From Pseudomonadota bacterium (lineage in GTDB: Bacteria > Pseudomonadota > Gammaproteobacteria > Burkholderiales > Rhodocyclaceae), in contig JAKOTN010000140.1 of assembly GCA_029776255.1 (NCBI GenBank), positions 1 through 34,084 on the forward strand: DNA of 34,084 nt. The letters are read 5' to 3'. Numbering within the stretch: position 1 is the first letter of the stretch; each line of letters starts with the position of its first letter. Made by a program: the position numbers and the translations under genes. The notes under the pieces were generated by a model. That model was not told the origin of the DNA, did no database searches, and was given only the letters and a program-made list of their open reading frames with translations. Below, in pieces: positions 11,057 to 20,220 of the stretch.

Positions 11057-13648
11057 TCAGTCTTCTCGGCCTTCCGCCAGCCGTGTGGCGATATGCGCCA
11101 GCGCTTCTTCGATTTGATCGATCAAAATCAGGCACAGGTCGCCAGGCCGCAGGCCGTCCAGAGCAGTGTCGATGGCCAGGAATTCCCCACGGATTTCCTG
11201 CACCGCTGTGGTGCGCCGCGCCAGTTTCAATCCGTCTTGCAGCAAGGCCAAGACTTCGCCGTCGGCTCGGCCACGCTGACACTGGTCCTGGTACAGCACG
11301 ACACTGTCGAAGGCGTTGCCGAGAATTTCCGTCTGCTGGCGGATGTCTTCGTCGCGCCGGTCGCCGGCGCCGCTGATCACCACCGTGCGCTTGCCGCCGG
11401 CGGGCTGGTTTAGATTCTCGATGGCATCGACCAGCGCCTGAATGGCGTCGGGGTTGTGGCCGTAGTCGGCAATCAGCGTGGCTCCGCGGTAGTCGAAGAG
11501 GTTGAAACGGCCTGGCGCGGTTTGCGCATCGTTGATGAAGGTTTTCAAGCCGCGGCCGATCGTTTCCCAATCAACGTTCAAGGCCCATGCGGCGGCGACG
11601 GCGGCCATCGCGTTTTCCACCTGGAAACCGATGGCGCCGGCGCGGGTGATCGGGATGTCGGTCAGTGGAATTCGCCGTTCGATGCCGGTGCCGGAGGCGA
11701 CGATGGCGTCGCCGTCACGATAAACCACAGGCTTTTTCCGCGCCCGGTGCATGGCCATGACCGGGTGATTACGATCGGTGGCGAAGAAAATGACGCTGCC
11801 GGGACAGGTATCCGCCATGCGGGCCACCATTGGATCGGCGGCGTTGAGCACGGCGACGCCGGTCTTTGGTCTGACATTTTGCACGATCACTCTTTTGACC
11901 ACCGACAGGTCCTCGACGGTGCTGATGTAAGACAGACCGAGGTGATCGCCAAGCCCGATATTGGTGATCACGGCCACGTCGCAACGATCGAAGCCCAAGC
12001 CTTCGCGCAATACTCCGCCGCGCGCCGTTTCGAGCACCGCGGCGTCCACGTCGGGGTGGAGAAGGACGTTGCGGGCGCTCTTTGGGCCGCTGCAATCGCC
12101 GGTGTCGACGCGTCGTCCGGCGATATAGACGCCGTCGGTGCTGGTCATGCCGACGCGGAGACCTTGTTGGGCGAGAATGTTGGCGATCAGCCGCACGGTG
12201 GTGGTTTTGCCGTTGGTGCCGGCGACGGCGACCAGCGGGATGCGGCCGTCGTCGCCAGGAGCGAACATGTTGGCGATGATCGCTTCGCCGACGGGGCGGC
12301 CCTTGCCGAACGATGGTTGCAGATGCATGCGCAGTCCGGGGGCGGCGTTGACTTCGACAATGCCGCCTCCCTGGTCTTCGAGCGGACGGAGAACGCTGTC
12401 GCAGACGACGTCGACGCCCGCGATATCGAGACCGATGGTTTGCGCCGCCGCAACGGCCTGCGCGGCGAATTCCGGATGAACGTCGTCGGTGACGTCGGTG
12501 GCGGTGCCGCCGGTCGACAGGTTGGCGTTGTTGCGCAGGACCACGCGTTTGCCGCGCGGGGGAATCGAGTCCGGCGTCAGGCCGGCACTGGCCAGGCGGG
12601 TCAGGGCGAGGTCGTCGAGGCGAATCCGGGTCAGCGAGGTGGCATGTCCCTCGCCACGGCGCGGGTCGCTGTTGACCCGTTCCACCAGTTGGCGAATGCT
12701 GTCCTTGCCGTTGCCGATAACCAGTGGCGGGTCGCGCCGGGCGGCGGCGACCAATTTGTCGCCGACGACCAGCAAGCGGTAATCGTGGCCCGGGATGTAA
12801 CGTTCGACGAGTACTTCGTCGCTGATTTCATAGGCGATGGCATAAGCGGCTTCGATTTGTTCCCGGGTGCCCAGGTTGACCGCCACGCCCTTGCCCTGAT
12901 TGCCGTCCTGCGGCTTGACGACCACCGGGCCATTGATTTCGCAGGCCGCCGCCCAGGCATCCTCGGCGCTTAGCACCGGTCGGCCGGTCGGCACCGGCAC
13001 GCCGGCGGCGTGCAACAGGATCTTGCTCAGTTCCTTGTCCTGAGCGATCGATTCGGCGACCGCACTGGTGCGGTCGGTTTCCGCAGCCTGGATGCGTCGT
13101 TGCCGGCTTCCCCAACCGAACTGCACCATGCTACCTTCGGTCAGACGCCGATAGGGGATGTTGCGCGCGGCGGCGGCGTACACAATCGCGCCAGTGCTTG
13201 GACCGAGGCGAACGTCTTCATCGAGTTCACGCAAACGGTCGAGCGCTTCGACCAGATCGAAGGTCACGTCGGCCACCGCCGCGTGGCAGAGATCCAGCGC
13301 CAGTTCAAAGGCCAGCCGGCCGACTTCCTCCTCGCTGTATTCGACCACCACTTGATACGTCCCGGCCTCCACCGTTTGCGAGGTGCGGCTGAAAGTCACC
13401 GGGCAACCGGCTTGCGCCTGCAAGCCGAGCGCGGCGAATTCCAGCGCCTGGGCGATCGATACCGCTTCGTCGTGGCCGGCCGGCCGCAACATGGCCAGCT
13501 CCGGAAAACGCTCGCGCAGGCGGGTTTCAAAGCCCGGCATGTCGCCGATATTGCGCTCCGATTCGTCGCAAACGACGATGGCCTCGATTGCCGTGTGCCG
13601 GCTCCAGAGATTGGGACCGCGCAGGGCGCGGAGACGTGAGACTTGCAT
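11057..13648 (-). CDS. cphA: Cyanophycin synthetase
   Basis: CphA builds multi-L-arginyl-poly-L-aspartate from Asp, Arg and ATP. All three domains are present in 863 residues. The N domain (1-160) begins RLRALRGPNLWSRHTAIEA. The ATP-grasp domain (about 165-470; AETDRTSAVAESIAQDKELSK, VVVKPQDGNQGKGVAVNL) adds Asp. The Mur-ligase-like M domain (about 471-863) has P-loop GTNGKTT near 476, the ETARGGVLREGLGFDRCDV motif, and the C-terminal lobe (TAPGRFNLFDY, IADYGHNPDAI, GAGDRRDEDI) needed to add Arg. Anomaly: the N-domain HxxEH position, carrying a cryptic primer-generating hydrolase site in some CphA enzymes, reads QxxEF here (residues 67-71), while cphA' keeps HILEH. A GAGGAC element precedes the ATG. 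The gene lies 90 bases downstream of cphA'. No cyanophycinase is in the window. Confidence 0.96.
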   Translation of the reverse strand: MQVSRLRALRGPNLWSRHTAIEAIVVCDESERNIGDMPGFETRLRERFPELAMLRPAGHDEAVSIAQALEFAALGLQAQAGCPVTFSRTSQTVEAGTYQVVVEYSEEEVGRLAFELALDLCHAAVADVTFDLVEALDRLRELDEDVRLGPSTGAIVYAAAARNIPYRRLTEGSMVQFGWGSRQRRIQAAETDRTSAVAESIAQDKELSKILLHAAGVPVPTGRPVLSAEDAWAAACEINGPVVVKPQDGNQGKGVAVNLGTREQIEAAYAIAYEISDEVLVERYIPGHDYRLLVVGDKLVAAARRDPPLVIGNGKDSIRQLVERVNSDPRRGEGHATSLTRIRLDDLALTRLASAGLTPDSIPPRGKRVVLRNNANLSTGGTATDVTDDVHPEFAAQAVAAAQTIGLDIAGVDVVCDSVLRPLEDQGGGIVEVNAAPGLRMHLQPSFGKGRPVGEAIIANMFAPGDDGRIPLVAVAGTNGKTTTVRLIANILAQQGLRVGMTSTDGVYIAGRRVDTGDCSGPKSARNVLLHPDVDAAVLETARGGVLREGLGFDRCDVAVITNIGLGDHLGLSYISTVEDLSVVKRVIVQNVRPKTGVAVLNAADPMVARMADTCPGSVIFFATDRNHPVMAMHRARKKPVVYRDGDAIVASGTGIERRIPLTDIPITRAGAIGFQVENAMAAVAAAWALNVDWETIGRGLKTFINDAQTAPGRFNLFDYRGATLIADYGHNPDAIQALVDAIENLNQPAGGKRTVVISGAGDRRDEDIRQQTEILGNAFDSVVLYQDQCQRGRADGEVLALLQDGLKLARRTTAVQEIRGEFLAIDTALDGLRPGDLCLILIDQIEEALAHIATRLAEGRED

Positions 13649-13738
13649 GAACAGTGTCCTCTTTCGTGTTCAACCCGGTGGCCGGCGATAGGTGTGTGAC
13701 CAACAGTACGACGTTGCGACAATACGGCGATTCAAGAC

Positions 13739-15910
13739 TCAGGGCGTGCTGAAGGTTTCCAGGACGGTGCGGATAATCTCGGGGGCGATTCCGAGTGCCA
13801 GGGCTGCGGCGGTGGCGGCGAGAACGTTTTCGATTTGGAAATCGAGACGTCCGCCGTCGGTCAGCGGAATTTTCCGTAATTTGACAAGGCTCGTTTCGTC
13901 GGTACCGTTGGTGACCGCGACTTCATCGCCACGGACCAGTACGGCACGCCGGCCTTGCGCCACATGATCGGCGATCGCCGGTAGATTCGGGTCCACGGCG
14001 AAGAAAATGACCTCGCCGTCGCACAGCGCCGCCATTTCGACCAGCATCGGCTGGCTGGCGTTGAGCACCGCCGCGCCGCTTGGCAGCACCACGTCAACCT
14101 GGGTACGCAGAACGGTGAATACCTGTTCGGGGGTCTGGATGTCGTGGCGACCGTAGTGGCGTTCCGGTTCGACATTGGTGATCACGCCGACCTGACAGCG
14201 ATCATAGGCCAGGCCGTCATTGAGGATGGCGTCGGTATCGTTTTCAAAAACGGCCGCTTCGACGGCGCGGTTCATCAGCAGGCGATGCGCGGCGCCCCAG
14301 TTGGCGCTGTCGGCCTTGTCGATGCAGCGCCGATCGACGAACAGGCCACCGCTGCACGCCAGACCGGTGTGCTTGCCGGACAAGGCCAGCAACCGGGCGA
14401 TCAGGCGAGCGACCGTGGTTTTGCCGACGCTGCCGCTGACGCCGACCACCGGGATGCGGCCGTCGCCGCCGTTGGGGAACAATTGATCGACGATGGCCCG
14501 GCCGACCGGCCGCGGTTGTCCGCTTTCGGGTTTCAGATGCATCAGCAGGCCGGGGCCGGCATTGACTTCGACGATCGCGCCGCGTTGGCCGTCCAGCGGT
14601 TGGGCGATGTTCTCGCAGACCAGATCGACACCGGCGATGTCCAGGCCGACGATGCGCGCGGCCAGCGAGGCGGTGGCCGCGGTATCCGGATGCACGAGAT
14701 CGGTGACATCGTCGGTATGGTTGCCGCTGCGCACGATCAGCACCTCGCGACCGGCCGGCGGCACCGATTCTCCCGTGAAACCTTGCCGCGATACTTCGAG
14801 ACTGGCGACCGGGTTGTCGGCGAGATCGATCACATCGAGCGGAAATTCCTCGGCCGCGCCGCGCCGCGGGTCGGAGTTGATCTGGGCGTCGATCAGGGCG
14901 TTGATCGTCGAGTGACCGTCGCCGACCACCTTGGCCGTTTCCCCGCGCGCGGCGGCGACCAGCGTGCCGCCGACGACCAGCAGCCGGTGTTCCGAGCCAC
15001 GGATGTAGCGTTCGACGATGACGCCGCTGCCTTCCTCGACCGCCGCGGCGTAGGCGGATTCGATTTCCTCGCGCGCCATCAGATTGGTGAATACGCCGCG
15101 GGCGTGGTTGCCGTCGGACGGTTTCACCACCACCGGCAGGCCAATTTCCTCGGCGGCTTCCCAGGCATCCTCGGCGCTATCGACCAGACGCCCGTCGGGA
15201 ACCGGTACGCCGCAGGCTTTGAGCAGCGTCTTGGTCAAATCCTTGTCGCGCGAAATGCCTTCGGCGATGGCGCTGGTGCGGTCGGTTTCGGCGGTCCAGA
15301 TCCGGCGACTACGGGCGCCGTAACCGAGTTGCACCAGATTGCCGGTGGGCAGGAGGCGGATCGCCGGTATGCGTCTGTCCTTGGCGGTCGCCGCGTCGAC
15401 GATGCAGCCGGTGCTCGGCCCGAGCAGCTTGCGTTCGGCCATGTCGGCGAGATGGGCGACGGTGCCGGCGACATCGAAAGCCTCGTCCTTGATCGCCGCC
15501 AGCAGCAATTCGCGGCCGGCGAACAGGCAGGCGCGGGTGACGTCGTCGTGCCAGGCGCGGACGACGACCTTGTACACGCCACGCGTCGATGTCTCGCGGG
15601 CCTTGCCGAAACCGCCCGGCATGCCGGCGAGGTTCTGGATTTCCAGCGTGACGTGTTCGAGGATGTGCGCCGGCCAGGTGCCTTCGCGAACGCGCCGCAA
15701 AAAGCCGCCACGCTCGCCGTAGCTGCAACGATGGTCGATCAGCGAGGGTAAAAAACCGCTGAGGCGTTCGTGGAAACCGGGGATGAGGTTCGAGGGAAAG
15801 TCTTCCAGTTCGCCGATGTCCACCACCGCTTCGATGACCGGGCGGTAGGTCCAGATATTCGGACCGCGCAGATAGCGGATCTCGAGGAACTTGATGTCTT
15901 TGTTTTTCAT
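13739..15910 (-). CDS. cphA': CphA', truncated cyanophycin synthetase paralogue
   Basis: A 723-residue paralogue of the downstream cphA with the same N domain and ATP-grasp domain (TWTAETDRTS-like segment at about 215-230; VVVKPSDGNHARGVFTNL), followed by an M domain that ends right after LALGIAPEIIRTVLETFSTP, where CphA continues into its C-terminal Mur-ligase lobe. About 155 residues are therefore absent. The P-loop is GSVGKTT instead of GTNGKTT, and the ETARGG motif is replaced by ENDTDAILNDG, so Arg addition is unlikely. The N domain has an intact HILEH (residues 82-86). Short CphA' proteins beside cphA are known in betaproteobacteria; their role is not settled. ATG 15910 (MKNKDIKFLEIRYLRGPN) is preferred because homology starts there. 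An upstream ATG at 15952 would add a Pro-rich 14-residue extension. Neither has a strong ribosome-binding site. Confidence 0.93.
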   Translation of the reverse strand: MKNKDIKFLEIRYLRGPNIWTYRPVIEAVVDIGELEDFPSNLIPGFHERLSGFLPSLIDHRCSYGERGGFLRRVREGTWPAHILEHVTLEIQNLAGMPGGFGKARETSTRGVYKVVVRAWHDDVTRACLFAGRELLLAAIKDEAFDVAGTVAHLADMAERKLLGPSTGCIVDAATAKDRRIPAIRLLPTGNLVQLGYGARSRRIWTAETDRTSAIAEGISRDKDLTKTLLKACGVPVPDGRLVDSAEDAWEAAEEIGLPVVVKPSDGNHARGVFTNLMAREEIESAYAAAVEEGSGVIVERYIRGSEHRLLVVGGTLVAAARGETAKVVGDGHSTINALIDAQINSDPRRGAAEEFPLDVIDLADNPVASLEVSRQGFTGESVPPAGREVLIVRSGNHTDDVTDLVHPDTAATASLAARIVGLDIAGVDLVCENIAQPLDGQRGAIVEVNAGPGLLMHLKPESGQPRPVGRAIVDQLFPNGGDGRIPVVGVSGSVGKTTVARLIARLLALSGKHTGLACSGGLFVDRRCIDKADSANWGAAHRLLMNRAVEAAVFENDTDAILNDGLAYDRCQVGVITNVEPERHYGRHDIQTPEQVFTVLRTQVDVVLPSGAAVLNASQPMLVEMAALCDGEVIFFAVDPNLPAIADHVAQGRRAVLVRGDEVAVTNGTDETSLVKLRKIPLTDGGRLDFQIENVLAATAAALALGIAPEIIRTVLETFSTP

Positions 15911-16073
15911 GGGCGTCGGCTCGGGGACGGGAAGGTTGGCTGGTGGCGGCACGGCGGGCTGGTGTCTGGCGGTGGATTCGCCGCGATTCTCGTGGGGATA
16001 ACGTGGCGTCGGTCAATCGGCTGACCGCCAATGGCCCGAATGGAATTAACGATGGCCGAGGCGCGCACGGGAT

Positions 16074-16547
16074 TCACAGAAAGCGGTCCAGGAAGCGTCG
16101 GCTTTGTTGATCGAGCGCTTGCCGGTCGCGGATCAGGAAGTGGATGCCGTGACTGTCGGCGATCAGCAACGCCGGCGGCGTCAGCCGGCGAATGTCTTCC
16201 TCGCCTTTGAGAATCAGCGTCGCCAGACCGCGTTCGGTGTCCACTTCCCAGGTGCTCGGCGTGGCGAAGCTGGAAACGCTGACGATGCGCTTGATTTCGG
16301 GCATGAACTCGCGACCGGCGAGTTCGCTTTCCACCAGTGCGCGGACCTCCGCCGGCAGATCGGCGAGGCGGTCTATCCAGGCCAGTTCATGCCCGTAGGG
16401 GTCGACCAGGGCGATACCGTCGTCGGGGGCGGTGATCGGAAAGGCGCGTACCGGCACCGCTCCTTCGCTGATTTCGCCGTCGGCGCCGATGAATTCCAGC
16501 CGTCCGAAGGCGTTGCGTCGCAATTGATAGTCGATGGGGGTACTCAT
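16074..16547 (-). CDS. DUF1854 protein associated with cyanophycin metabolism
   Basis: A 157-residue soluble protein without signal peptide or membrane segment. It matches DUF1854: an opening FGRLEFIGADGEISEGAVPVRAFPI, the conserved GIALVDPYGHELAWIDRLADLP, and SSFATPSTWEVDTERG in the second half. DUF1854 genes recur next to cphA'/cphA and a particular ABC transporter in betaproteobacteria, as here. Its ATG overlaps the ABC transporter stop (ATGA, 16544-16547), indicating translational coupling and probably a shared complex or function. The biochemical role is unknown; an accessory or cytosolic adaptor for the transporter is an inference. A 163-base gap follows before cphA', with no clear terminator or promoter in it. 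Confidence 0.85.
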   Translation of the reverse strand: MSTPIDYQLRRNAFGRLEFIGADGEISEGAVPVRAFPITAPDDGIALVDPYGHELAWIDRLADLPAEVRALVESELAGREFMPEIKRIVSVSSFATPSTWEVDTERGLATLILKGEEDIRRLTPPALLIADSHGIHFLIRDRQALDQQSRRFLDRFL

Positions 16548-18868
16548 TCGCGGTCGTCCTCGTCCTTGCCGGCCAGGTCCGGAGCGCGCAGAGGGTCCTC
16601 GGTGTCCACGTTGCGCGCCTGCGCCTGATAAAGGCGGTAATAGTGACCTTCGTGGGCCATCAACGCCTCATGGCTGCCGACCTCGACGACGCTGCCGCGA
16701 TCGAGCACCACTAGCCGATTGGCGTCACGGAGCGTGGACAGGCGGTGGGCGATGGCGATGGTCGTGCGGCCGCGAACCAGATTGTCGAGGGCTTTCTGGA
16801 TTTCCTTTTCGGTGGTGGTATCCACCGACGACGTGGCTTCGTCGAGAATCAGGATGCGCGGGTCGATCAGCAGCGCGCGGGCAATCGAGATCCGCTGCCG
16901 TTCGCCGCCGGAGAGCGCCTGCCCGCGCTCGCCGACCAGTGAGTCGTAGCCATGCGGCAGGCGGAGAATGAATTCGTGAGCGTGCGCGGCGCGCGCGGCG
17001 GCGATGATCTCGGCGCGTGTCGCCTCCGGCTTGCCGTAGGCGATGTTCTCGGCGATCGTGCCGAAGAACAGGAAGGGTTCCTGTAGCACCAGGCCGATGT
17101 GGCGGCGGTACTCGGCCACTGGCAGCGAACGGATGTCCACTCCGTCGATCAGGATCGCGCCTTCGGTGACATCGTAAAAGCGGCAAATCAGATTGACCAT
17201 GGTGCTTTTGCCGGAGCCGCTGTGGCCGACCAGACCGACCATTTCGCCGGGTTCGATGACCAGGCTGATGTCACGGGTGACGCTGCGGGTGCCATAGCGG
17301 AAGCCGACGCCGCGCAGTTCGATGCGGCCGGACACCGTCGGCAGATGCATCGGGTTTGCCGGTTCGGGCACGCTGGAGACGTGGTCGAGAATATCGAAAA
17401 TCCGCTTGGCGCCGGCGGCGGCCTTTTGCGTCACCGAGACAATGCGGCTCATCGAATCGAGCCGCAAATAAAAGCGGCTGATGTAGGCCAGGAAGGCGGT
17501 CAGCACCCCGACGGTGATTCGGTCCTGGGCGATCTGCCAGATGCCGAAAGCCCAGACGATCAGCAAGCCGATTTCGGTCAGCAGCGTGACGGTTGGCGAG
17601 AACAGCGACCAGACCCGGTTGACCCGGTCGTTGACGTCCAGGTTATGCACGTTGGCGGCGCGGAAGCGTGTTGCCTCGCGCGCTTCCTGCGCGAAAGCCT
17701 TGACCACCCGAATGCCGGGAATGGTGTCGGCGAGTACATTGGTCACTTCGGCCCAGACCCGGTCGACGCGCTCGAAGCCGGTGCGCAGTTTTTCGCGCAC
17801 CACGTGGATCAGCCAGGCGATGATCGGTAGCGGCAGCAGGGTGACCATCGCCAGCCAGGGATCGATCGACACCAGAATCGCCGTGGTCATCAGGATCATC
17901 AGCACGTCGGTGGCAAAGTCGAGCAGATGCAGCGAAATGAAGATGTTGATCCGGTCGGTTTCCGAGCCGATGCGCGCCATCAGGTCGCCGGTGCGCTTGC
18001 CGCCGAAATATTCCTGCGACAGCTTCAGCAAATGTTCGTAAGTCGTGGTGCGCAGGTCGGCGCCAATGCGTTCGGAAACCAGCGCCAGAATATACGTCCG
18101 CGCCCAGCCGAGCACCCAGGCCACCAGCGAGGCGCCAAGCAGACCGGAGAGGTAGAGTCCCACCAGAGCGGGGTCGATCGACTGGCCGTTCTGGTATGGA
18201 ATCAATACCTTGTCCATCAATGGCATGGTCAGGTATGGCGCGACCAGCGTCGCGGCGGTGGTCAGCAATGAAAGCACGAAACCGGCCAGCAGGCGCCCCT
18301 TGTACGGCTTGGCGAAACGCGCCAGACGGAGCAGGGTCCAGGTCGACGGCGGTTCGTGGATTTCCTTGCTGCACGCCGGGCATTCCTCTTGGCCGGCGAT
18401 CAAGGGCGTTTCGCATTGCGGGCACAGCGGCAGCGACGAAGGCGGCGGTTCCCGGCCGGTGACGCGTAGCGACAGTTGCCGGGTAAAGCGTTCGATCAGG
18501 CGACCGGCGGCGATGTCGCAACCCAGGGTGTAGCGCCAACCGCCGAGCAGACCGTTGGCATCGGCCAGTTCCAGGGTGCCCACGCCGGAGTGATCGCGGC
18601 GCGACAGCGTCAAGCCCTCGCGGTAGCTCCAGCTTTCCCAGTCGCCATCGGCGTTCGAACTGGCCAGCAAGCGTTCTCCGGTCAGCACGACCATGCCGGG
18701 CGCGAAGCGCAGTCTGGCGTCGAGATCGATTGCCAGCCAGGCCAGAACGTTTTCATCGCCCCGCAGTTGCGGCTGTAGGCCGCTCGCCCAGGCAGCCGGC
18801 AGCGGTGTCGACGACGGTGCGGACAATACGGCGCCAGAATCCGTCGAGGAAGAAAGGGCTTGCGTCAT
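16544..18868 (-). CDS. ABC transporter (fused membrane + ATPase), cyanophycin-locus type
   Basis: A half-size ABC exporter with an unusual N-terminal extension. In order: about 120 residues of soluble PH-like/beta domain (WLAIDLDARLRFAPGMVVLT), a zinc ribbon (CPQC and CPAC, PLCPQCETPLIAGQEECPAC), an exporter membrane domain of six helices starting at FAKPYKGRLLAGFVLSLL, and an ATPase domain with Walker A GHSGSGKST, Q-loop LVLQEPFLFFGTIAENIAYG, signature LSGGERQRISIARALL, Walker B ILILDEATSSVD and the switch His in IAIAHRLSTLRDANR. It would work as a homodimer. The partners (DUF1854, cphA', cphA) suggest a role in cyanophycin metabolism; its substrate is unknown. ATG 18868 is chosen because a TATACT at 18917-18922 could be its -10; ATG 18940 would add 24 residues. 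Neither start has a good ribosome-binding site. Confidence 0.88.
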   Translation of the reverse strand: MTQALSSSTDSGAVLSAPSSTPLPAAWASGLQPQLRGDENVLAWLAIDLDARLRFAPGMVVLTGERLLASSNADGDWESWSYREGLTLSRRDHSGVGTLELADANGLLGGWRYTLGCDIAAGRLIERFTRQLSLRVTGREPPPSSLPLCPQCETPLIAGQEECPACSKEIHEPPSTWTLLRLARFAKPYKGRLLAGFVLSLLTTAATLVAPYLTMPLMDKVLIPYQNGQSIDPALVGLYLSGLLGASLVAWVLGWARTYILALVSERIGADLRTTTYEHLLKLSQEYFGGKRTGDLMARIGSETDRINIFISLHLLDFATDVLMILMTTAILVSIDPWLAMVTLLPLPIIAWLIHVVREKLRTGFERVDRVWAEVTNVLADTIPGIRVVKAFAQEAREATRFRAANVHNLDVNDRVNRVWSLFSPTVTLLTEIGLLIVWAFGIWQIAQDRITVGVLTAFLAYISRFYLRLDSMSRIVSVTQKAAAGAKRIFDILDHVSSVPEPANPMHLPTVSGRIELRGVGFRYGTRSVTRDISLVIEPGEMVGLVGHSGSGKSTMVNLICRFYDVTEGAILIDGVDIRSLPVAEYRRHIGLVLQEPFLFFGTIAENIAYGKPEATRAEIIAAARAAHAHEFILRLPHGYDSLVGERGQALSGGERQRISIARALLIDPRILILDEATSSVDTTTEKEIQKALDNLVRGRTTIAIAHRLSTLRDANRLVVLDRGSVVEVGSHEALMAHEGHYYRLYQAQARNVDTEDPLRAPDLAGKDEDDRE

Positions 18869-18994
18869 CGGGGAAAATGTCTCGGACGAGGCGGAGGGTG
18901 GCAAAAGAAGCTCGCCAGTATACTCGTCTGCAAGCGCCATGGCGGTTGCCGCGAGGAGTTGTCGATGAGCGGGCGACGGCTCCCCGGTTCGTGG

Positions 18995-19555
18995 TCAGGA
19001 AAAACCGGGGAGCCAGCCGCTCAGGTGACCGTTTGGCACCGCTACCAGCGACCCCTGGAATAGCGCTTCGATCACCGGCGCTTCGCGCCAGTGTTCCTCC
19101 ATGAAGGTTAACCCGATCTCCTCGACCAAGGTGCCTGTCCAGTAGTGGTTGGCGATTTCATCCAGCGTGGACAGGCTCAGGCTGTGCGGCAGGCGCAGAT
19201 AGTCCAGCCAGCTGGCGTCGTGAAACGAGCAAACGTAAGTGCCTTTGCTGCGGGCGCGGACGAGGGTCTTGCCGAAAACGCGTTGTGGGTGCTTGGCGCG
19301 GAAGGTTTCCGCGTCGATACGGGTGGCGAACAGCAGGAGGGCATGCAGGCGGCTCGGGAAGTGCTGAAATTCGCGTTGCCGGAAATACTCCAGGTGATAC
19401 TCGGCGAAATAGTTCTGCACCGTGGTGAACTGATCTTCCGGCAGCGCCTTGCCGAAGGGATTGCCGACCAGAATGTCCCAGCCCGGCAACTCGGCGCCGT
19501 CGTCTAGCCAAGCGTACAGTTCGAGCGGCGTGTTGTCCTTGAGCAAGTGGTCCAT
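18995..19555 (-). CDS. Uncharacterised conserved-looking protein, 186 residues
   Basis: I do not recognise this family with certainty. The start at 19555 (MDHLLKDNTPLELYAWLDDG) is supported by AGGAA ten bases upstream; the open frame runs further up but there only shadows proQ. It is a soluble protein without signal peptide, with a compact aromatic-rich pattern: YAWLDDGAELPGWDIL, an HFPSRLHALLLFATRIDAETF core, FGKTLVRARSKGTYVCSFHDASWLDYL, and ANHYWTGTLVEEIGLTFMEEHWREAP. The 'PSR..ALF.F....A' run followed by a beta strand faintly recalls DUF2441/ADP-ribosyltransferase-like proteins; this is a weak impression. It follows proQ on the same strand after a 95-base gap. No toxin/immunity partner is visible. 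Confidence 0.6.
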   Translation of the reverse strand: MDHLLKDNTPLELYAWLDDGAELPGWDILVGNPFGKALPEDQFTTVQNYFAEYHLEYFRQREFQHFPSRLHALLLFATRIDAETFRAKHPQRVFGKTLVRARSKGTYVCSFHDASWLDYLRLPHSLSLSTLDEIANHYWTGTLVEEIGLTFMEEHWREAPVIEALFQGSLVAVPNGHLSGWLPGFS

Positions 19556-19650
19556 GGCGAGGGTTCCTAGCGCGGACAAGCGGTCTGGCAATGCGACTCG
19601 TTGTTTGCCATCGGTTCTGTCGGGCTTGCCATGCGCGATAAGACGGTCGT

Positions 19651-20076
19651 TCAGCGGTTGCGGCCGAATTTTTCGACCAGTTGGCCGAGTTTTTCCGTTC
19701 GCTGCCGGGCCAGTGTTTCGGCTTCGCGCTGCGCCTTGCGCAATTCCGCTTGCTTTTTCAGGCGCTCGCGGATGATTTCCGAGGCGTACTCGCGATGCGC
19801 GGGCGGGATCGCGTCGGCGACCTCTCCGTCCAGGTTCAAGCGCACCGTCGCTTTTTCCATCGACTTCAGATAACGCAGCGAGTGAGTGTGCATGCCCAGG
19901 GCGACGCGCAGTTCCTTGCGGTTCAACTCGGGCAGCCGGCTGAGTAGCTGCTTGTCGATGCCGATGGCCAGTGGCAGGCAGTCGCGAAAAACCGGGAACC
20001 GAGTCTGCAATTCCTTCAGAAGCTGGCGTGCGTTCTGGCTGGTCGCGGAAGGTGGCGTGGGTGTGGTGGTCGTCAT
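19651..20076 (-). CDS. proQ: ProQ/FinO-domain RNA-binding protein
   Basis: A 141-residue RNA chaperone of the ProQ/FinO family, which binds 3' ends of structured small RNAs and mRNAs. The FinO domain covers about residues 15-115: LLKELQTRFPVFRDCLPLAIGID, LPELNRKELRVALGMHTHSLRYL, and a KATVRLNLDGEVADAI turn. It ends in a highly charged helix (RERLKKQAELRKAQREAETL) and lacks the Tudor-like C-terminal domain of E. coli ProQ, as is usual for the short betaproteobacterial/Neisseria forms. The N-terminal dozen residues are Thr/Pro-rich and disordered. It lies between the fatty acyl reductase and the uncharacterised protein, all on the minus strand, with gaps large enough for separate promoters. Confidence 0.88.
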   Translation of the reverse strand: MTTTTPTPPSATSQNARQLLKELQTRFPVFRDCLPLAIGIDKQLLSRLPELNRKELRVALGMHTHSLRYLKSMEKATVRLNLDGEVADAIPPAHREYASEIIRERLKKQAELRKAQREAETLARQRTEKLGQLVEKFGRNR

Positions 20077-20220
20077 GAGTGTCGGGGCGGAAAAAATAGT
20101 CGATCAGGCCCTGCATGGCCGTGAAACGCGAGCAGGTGCGATGGCGGGAGTCGTGGCGAACGTGTCTGGTCCAAGATTATTGTTCCGTCGGCGAGACCGG
20201 AAACGGCCACGGGTTGGCGT

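Follow-up and report, generated by a model that had tools for sequence, protein, structure and literature searches.

Cyanophycin synthetase is encoded twice, side by side, in the window, by which we mean the whole 34,084-nucleotide stretch analysed here (Rhodocyclaceae; GenBank assembly GCA_029776255.1, contig JAKOTN010000140.1). The two proteins, CphA' and CphA, share the N, G and M domain architecture and, between them, the site residues of cyanophycin synthetase 1 (CphA1; SuCphA1, PDB 7lg5 and 7txv; TeCphA1, PDB 7wac), and alignment indicates that the N-domain site and the polymerising sites are separated in every scorable protein of such pairs. We consider it probable that CphA' is the partner that cuts primers, that CphA is the ligase that adds aspartate (Asp) and arginine (Arg), and that the two are together primer-independent. 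The features of the pair are given below by their positions in the window.

13739..15910, minus strand: CphA' gene, 723 amino acids from the ATG at 15910 (open reading frame; NCBIfam).
15653..15727, minus strand: CphA' N-domain site Cx19HxxEH, C62 to H86, a pattern match that is invariant in 182 of 182 CphA'.
13739..14450, minus strand: CphA' M core, with approximate start (Pfam Mur_ligase_M, no Mur_ligase_C).
11057..13648, minus strand: CphA gene, 863 amino acids, with complete G and M domains and an N domain that has lost its site.
13436..13504, minus strand: place of the lost site in CphA, a shortened Cys loop ending in QALEF (pattern scan and alignment).
12896..12898, minus strand: CphA Q251, at the TeCphA1 His267 position (GNQGKG for GNHGRG; alignment to PDB 7wac).

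The N-domain site published for CphA1 consists of Cx19HxxEH plus H57, F67, R70 and E87 (PMC9262961), all of which is present in the window CphA'. The original prediction, made from this stretch of DNA alone, had reported HILEH at CphA' residues 82-86 (counted from the ATG; codons 15667-15653) and QALEF at CphA residues 67-71 (codons 13450-13436), and both are exactly there. It had also taken HxxEH to be the site; this is indeed present in CphA', yet it is incomplete, as the third metal ligand, a Cys, was missed. The complete Cx19HxxEH of the window CphA' reads CSYGERGGFLRRVREGTWPAHILEH, with C62 at 15725-15727, H82 at 15665-15667, E85 at 15656-15658 and H86 at 15653-15655. A pattern scan found no match to Cx19HxxEH anywhere in the window CphA, whose Cys loop is gone by deletion. 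The alignment of the relatives' CphA' starts, as MxxKxIxFL, at the window ATG, and an in-frame GTG at 15952 is an alternative start that gives 737 amino acids. CphA is above the cut-offs of both NF010623 (1241.4 bits, cut-off 877) and TIGR02068 (960.8 bits, cut-off 850); CphA' is above the former with 1057.8 bits and below the latter, an equivalog model, with 754 bits.

A search for relatives matched 148 of 399 genomes of the order (E <= 1e-100), 18 of 369 of the class and 29 of 398 of the phylum, these samples being overlapping. CphA-family frames came from 166 genomes, of which the 165 with at least 330 bits were used; the matched genomes G014, G091, G172, G051, G075 and G082 were left out of the fetched set. 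Thirty loci of the order had flanks of 1.5 kilobases and, unless refetched, are missing the N domain of one partner. A separate named set comprised the best 80 of 104 relatives' loci, and overlaps the fetched set by 7 CphA' and 8 CphA sequences. Proteins were classed by score as CphA, CphA' or "single type", i.e., clearly neither, which is a score class and not a copy count; the single-type set (n = 42) includes nine planctomycete loci (Pirellula and kin). Fetched pieces that did not reach the N domain led to the removal of 19 CphA' and 5 CphA, and one further CphA fails a stricter coverage rule. Residues are numbered on the alignment reference TeCphA1 (PDB 7wac; numbering checked). Given that the D585 column is misaligned in the larger alignment, M-domain Asp and His states were read from other alignments. 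The closest named relatives among the matches listed belong to Candidatus Accumulibacter, with CphA' identities of 81-85%, and the window probably derives from this group.

All eight N-site residues (H57, C59, F67, R70, H79, E82, H83 and E87) are kept in 182 of 182 scorable CphA' (175 distinct sequences). They are among the 22 invariant columns of the 150 in the CphA' N domain (hypergeometric P = 6e-8), and the conservation of this site in the aligned proteins is not chance. Among scorable CphA, Cx19HxxEH was found in 0 of 202 (194 distinct sequences). The loss in CphA with retention in CphA' that had been proposed from the window is thus present across its relatives, albeit as one evolutionary event. 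Single-type enzymes have the C, H, E and H in 39 of 42 cases, the exceptions being two divergent proteins (G626 and G136) and one protein of the second locus of genome G056. As for the lesion itself, H79 is retained in 160 of the 202 CphA, E82 in 142, H83 in nine and C59 in none, and HxxEH occurs without the Cys in seven. The QxxEF form that had been proposed is correct for the window but belongs to a minority (exact Q, E and F at H79, E82 and H83 in 18/202); commoner is a nine-residue shortening of the Cys loop, the P52-Q89 spacing being 29 in 187/202 CphA versus 38 in 182/182 CphA'.

Two loci show other arrangements. The second locus of G056 (L218, 2-6934) holds two full-length motif-less synthetases on opposite strands, and an ordinary pair is also present in that genome. 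In G358 (L076:7166-9346), a CphA occurs without CphA'; given the long unrelated frame, possibly an insertion, in the expected upstream place and the nearby contig end, this is not a clean exception.

In a tree of 411 G domains, 174 CphA' form one clade (support 1.0) and 193 CphA another (support 0.78), with one outlying CphA-like protein of G056 outside the latter. The split is, by this tree, the outcome of one old duplication that has been retained since. The planctomycete single genes and G928 lie beside the pair clades in a poorly resolved placement. Planctomycete single CphA (L297-L301, L303-L305 and L308) match either paralogue with higher scores than the remaining single-type proteins, and they may be like the pre-duplication state. 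One could hold that the table reflects plain drift after this duplication, i.e., one old loss in CphA without any functional pairing, and a single duplication does explain the whole table. Nevertheless, the N site has been lost in 0/182 CphA', while the M lid of the same proteins shows at least six state changes under equal-cost parsimony, or 17 losses if never regained (several nodes of the CphA' tree used are weak), and the G domain has decayed in a few CphA' that group together with weak support. We therefore regard drift as extremely unlikely.

The constraint on each domain agrees with a division of the sites. Over 106 same-genome pairs, the mean pairwise identities of the N, G and M core domains are 0.60, 0.70 and 0.67 in CphA and 0.64, 0.66 and 0.46 in CphA', and 67 named loci give the same order of domain identities. 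N identity lies above G in 40% of genome comparisons for CphA', and below G in 98% for CphA. In 18 Accumulibacter-type pairs, including that of the window, the median ratios of nonsynonymous to synonymous substitution rates (dN/dS) for the N, G and M core domains are 0.120, 0.086 and 0.106 in CphA and 0.085, 0.088 and 0.219 in CphA'. By these measures, N is the least constrained domain of CphA, though still constrained, while CphA' shows constraint on N and G and a relaxed or truncated M domain. A mirror-tree comparison of CphA and CphA' distances (r = 0.49, 113 genomes) was given no weight.

For the G domain, residue roles were taken as given in the excerpted text of PMC9427784. The window CphA keeps K220, K261, R309, R323, N394, S396, D431, E450, G456 and R458, as well as K499, D585 and H586 of the M domain, and differs at two G residues (His267 to Gln and Glu215 to Ser). 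R323, S396 and R458 are nearly always kept in paired CphA, and Gln replaces His267 in 198 of the 203 that have a residue there. His267 belongs to the G-domain phosphate loop; its mutation to Ala inactivated the SuCphA1 G domain (PMC9262961) and lowered TeCphA1 activity (PMC9427784, in excerpt). Gln at 267 together with an intact N site was seen in the planctomycete single gene L308 and in G928.

The window CphA' has R323 replaced by Gly, S396 deleted and R458 replaced by Leu. In the combinations listed for CphA' generally, R323 is replaced, mostly by Gly, the S396 loop is deleted and R458 is replaced, mostly by Leu, so the G domain mostly retains the ATP and Mg ligands and not the residues that hold the incoming Asp. 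Given these changes, Asp addition by CphA', which the original prediction had offered as a possibility, is unlikely, and on these residues it was rejected. In the M core of the window CphA', the P-loop reads GSVGKTT, Arg stands in place of Asp in the catalytic Asp-His pair (K, R and H in the site table), and Pfam detects no lid (Mur_ligase_C). A lid is present in 22 of 201 CphA', among them those of Cupriavidus, Pandoraea and Achromobacter; the remainder include some cut pieces.

These same residues could be read as those of a repurposed ATP-grasp ligase, whereby CphA' would mainly join a non-Asp substrate (a starter, a CphA2-like dipeptide or two fragments) with the N site assisting. The low CphA' G-domain dN/dS, the new common residues at R323 and R458, the deletion of the S396 loop and the joint retention of K220, K261, H267, R309, D431 and E450 in 173/182 CphA' are all in its favour. 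Yet the three CphA' that lost half or more of these six residues (the second pair of G316, G489 and G284, with 1, 1 and 3 of the six ATP and catalytic residues) keep all eight N residues, and CphA2 itself is without the N motif (PMC9262961). Such repurposing as the main role is, in our judgement, unlikely.

Structure predictions bear on whether CphA' could be a catalytically dead structural or regulatory subunit whose site residues are conserved only because they bind zinc and support folding. The AlphaFold2 model of CphA' has a mean predicted local distance difference test score (pLDDT) of 87.7, with a confident N domain in which the N-site helix spans residues 80-94 (pLDDT 96 for block 81-90). 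Its best solved matches are TeCphA1 and SuCphA1, with template modelling (TM) scores of 0.87-0.90 by query length, and include 7txv, the E82Q form with polymer; the nearest solved chains by sequence are likewise SuCphA1 and TeCphA1. The CphA model has a mean pLDDT of 72 and a poor G domain, with 53-93 for blocks of residues 1-150. In support of a dead subunit, CphA' has altered G and M sites and still has its M core, though the catalytic residues of this core are gone in most. However, E82 is a general base and not a metal ligand, yet it is invariant in 182/182 CphA', and the model predicts a folded N domain for CphA even though most of the site residues are missing there. We deem a dead subunit very unlikely.

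CphA2 (7ta5 and 8fxh), a shortened relative, was also considered, as most CphA' are likewise without the M lid. In contrast with CphA2, which is without the N motif (PMC9262961), CphA' has it in 182/182, and in fold CphA' matches CphA2 less well than cyanobacterial CphA1 (TM 0.59-0.64 versus 0.87-0.90, by query length). Hence, the assignment of CphA' as a CphA2 was rejected.

In comparison with SuCphA1 and TeCphA1, which have three sites on one chain, the sites are here on two: the N site is kept by CphA', and the M site, together with the G residues that bind Asp, is kept by CphA, which differs in having Gln for His267. In SuCphA1, the E82Q mutant has no activity without primer, and SuCphA1 with dead G and M sites, or its isolated N domain, renders the motif-less TmCphA1 primer-independent in trans (PMC9262961). 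The primer-dependent TmCphA1 (Tatumella morbirosei; 7lgn by title) has a motif-less N domain, like CphA, and can be served in trans by an active N domain, although it keeps His267 where the window CphA has Gln and the excerpted Results and Discussion of PMC9262961 describe no natural partner for it. The pair looks like a natural version of this in-trans experiment. The original proposal that the pair has split the job agrees with the separation of the sites, the per-domain constraint and the published action in trans, Asp addition by CphA' being the part that was dropped.

The proposed mechanism starts from a complete CphA1 that would have been duplicated once, its three active sites then being divided. 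CphA' would have kept the N-domain zinc endopeptidase, while its G domain would have ceased to bind Asp and its M domain, in most lineages, to work; CphA would still add Asp (G) and Arg (M), a small deletion having removed its N site. CphA would then build the polymer, and the CphA' N site, in a mixed oligomer or on a free protein, would nick chains internally, freeing short pieces that CphA extends, which would make the pair primer-independent. On this view, CphA' would cut cyanophycin and CphA alone would be primer-dependent; we infer the order of the losses and that the product of the pair is cyanophycin.

Several points weigh against this division of labour. Given a single duplication, the correlation of loss and retention counts as one event, which limits what the correlation alone can prove. 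Since the G and N domains of CphA' are under roughly equal constraint, cutting may not be the sole job of CphA'. The N motif is not strictly defining, being present in 83% of CphA1 at 70% redundancy (PMC9262961): the divergent single-type proteins noted above are without it, 7lgm (A. baylyi by title), with no known partner, is without HxxEH in the alignments, and the motif-less TmCphA1, also with no known partner, yields cyanophycin in E. coli (PMC9262961). Wild-type Ralstonia eutropha, despite its two homologues, was reported to show no cyanophycin (PMC11362209, in excerpt, citing Adames 2013). Lastly, E215, which in TeCphA1 touches the Arg side chain of the polymer according to excerpted text, has mostly given way to S, A, T or G in the two paralogues, but is Glu in only 17 of the 42 single-type proteins too, and the SuCphA1 tetramer residue W672 is not conserved in CphA, CphA' or the single-type group; the product and the assembly may therefore be unlike those of cyanobacteria.

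Wherever a locus holds one CphA' and one CphA (178 of 178 loci, some species being represented twice), the CphA' gene is the immediate upstream neighbour of CphA and is on the same strand, with a median gap of 37 base pairs as estimated from the aligned start. Two further genes on the same strand follow upstream of the pair in the window.

16074..16547, minus strand: DUF1854 gene (NCBIfam NF052234, "cyanophycin metabolism-associated DUF1854 family protein", 231.4 bits, cut-off 150).
16544..18940, minus strand: ABC exporter-type gene, overlapping the DUF1854 gene (NF052233, "cyanophycin metabolism-associated ABC transporter", 1413.3 bits, cut-off 880).

The DUF1854 gene is probably in the same operon as the pair. 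Upstream of the ABC gene, an open reading frame of 373 amino acids at 18995-20116 has no Pfam or NCBIfam match. A homologue of the ABC gene occurs in 83/91 fetched pair loci versus 0/8 same-order single genes (two with short flanks), and in the named set in 65/71 loci with CphA' versus 0/9 planctomycete loci. The window's own genome has no match to the cyanophycinase model TIGR02069, and a recognisable cyanophycinase is reported in only 3% of CphA1-bearing betaproteobacterial genomes (PMC10206079, in excerpt), making leftover degradation pieces a less obvious source of primers.

This context also suits a role for the CphA' N site in turnover, be it in place of the missing cyanophycinase or in setting chain length for export by the adjoining transporter: the rarity of cyanophycinase and the linkage of the ABC homologue to pair loci both favour it. 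However, the N domain that has been characterised cuts slowly and internally and yields mainly four-unit products, unlike an exo-cyanophycinase (PMC9262961), and single-type enzymes without an adjoining transporter retain the same N site. We thus consider turnover or chain-length setting possible but unlikely as the function of the site.

Records of a second synthetase gene beside cphA outside the cyanobacteria go back to 2007 (cited in PMC10687191, in excerpt). The neighbouring duplicate noted earlier (Fuser and Steinbuchel 2007, via PMC10687191; Ralstonia eutropha, PMC11362209) is, according to excerpts of these papers, of the same pair type; an ABC transporter gene is placed in such a cluster by the excerpted PMC10687191, and neither excerpt gives the second copy a separate role. 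As for expression, both cphA copies are evenly expressed in Accumulibacter in an excerpt of PMC10687191, and cphA expression there is very low in an excerpt of another study (PMC12455942). Complementary loss of the N site was not described in the literature searched, nor was a betaproteobacterial pair reported to make cyanophycin, most subscription papers being outside the reach of that search; the words paralog, operon, second copy and proteobacteri are absent from the text of PMC9262961.

Cutting of primers by CphA' would give a concrete, testable role to the second synthetase gene adjoining cphA and a candidate answer to the origin of primers in bacteria that seldom have a cyanophycinase that can be recognised. 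It would also be a clear example of a multi-site enzyme whose sites have been shared out between two paralogues, and it suggests that attempts to make polymer with betaproteobacterial enzymes should express the two genes together. A further extension, which we find unlikely, is an obligate two-subunit polymer machine in which the partly gutted paralogue is the dedicated primer-maker, its ATP-grasp domain has a new acceptor instead of Asp and a possibly non-standard product is exported by the linked ABC transporter. If true, an unusual or exported product might explain the lack of cyanophycin in wild-type R. eutropha with its two homologues.

Some minor observations were made in the same survey. 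The 19 plasmid records found have one place each, annotated as cyanophycin synthetase and all with less than 60% identity to CphA'. In addition to a pair, G141 has seven more proteins like the G-domain part of CphA, in open frames of 589-641 amino acids (e.g., L207:904-2697). After a single-type cphA, L039:7686-9440 encodes a 585-amino-acid protein that resembles the M domain of CphA only (TIGR02068 positions 474-860), and weak matches occur at similar places in other single-gene genomes.

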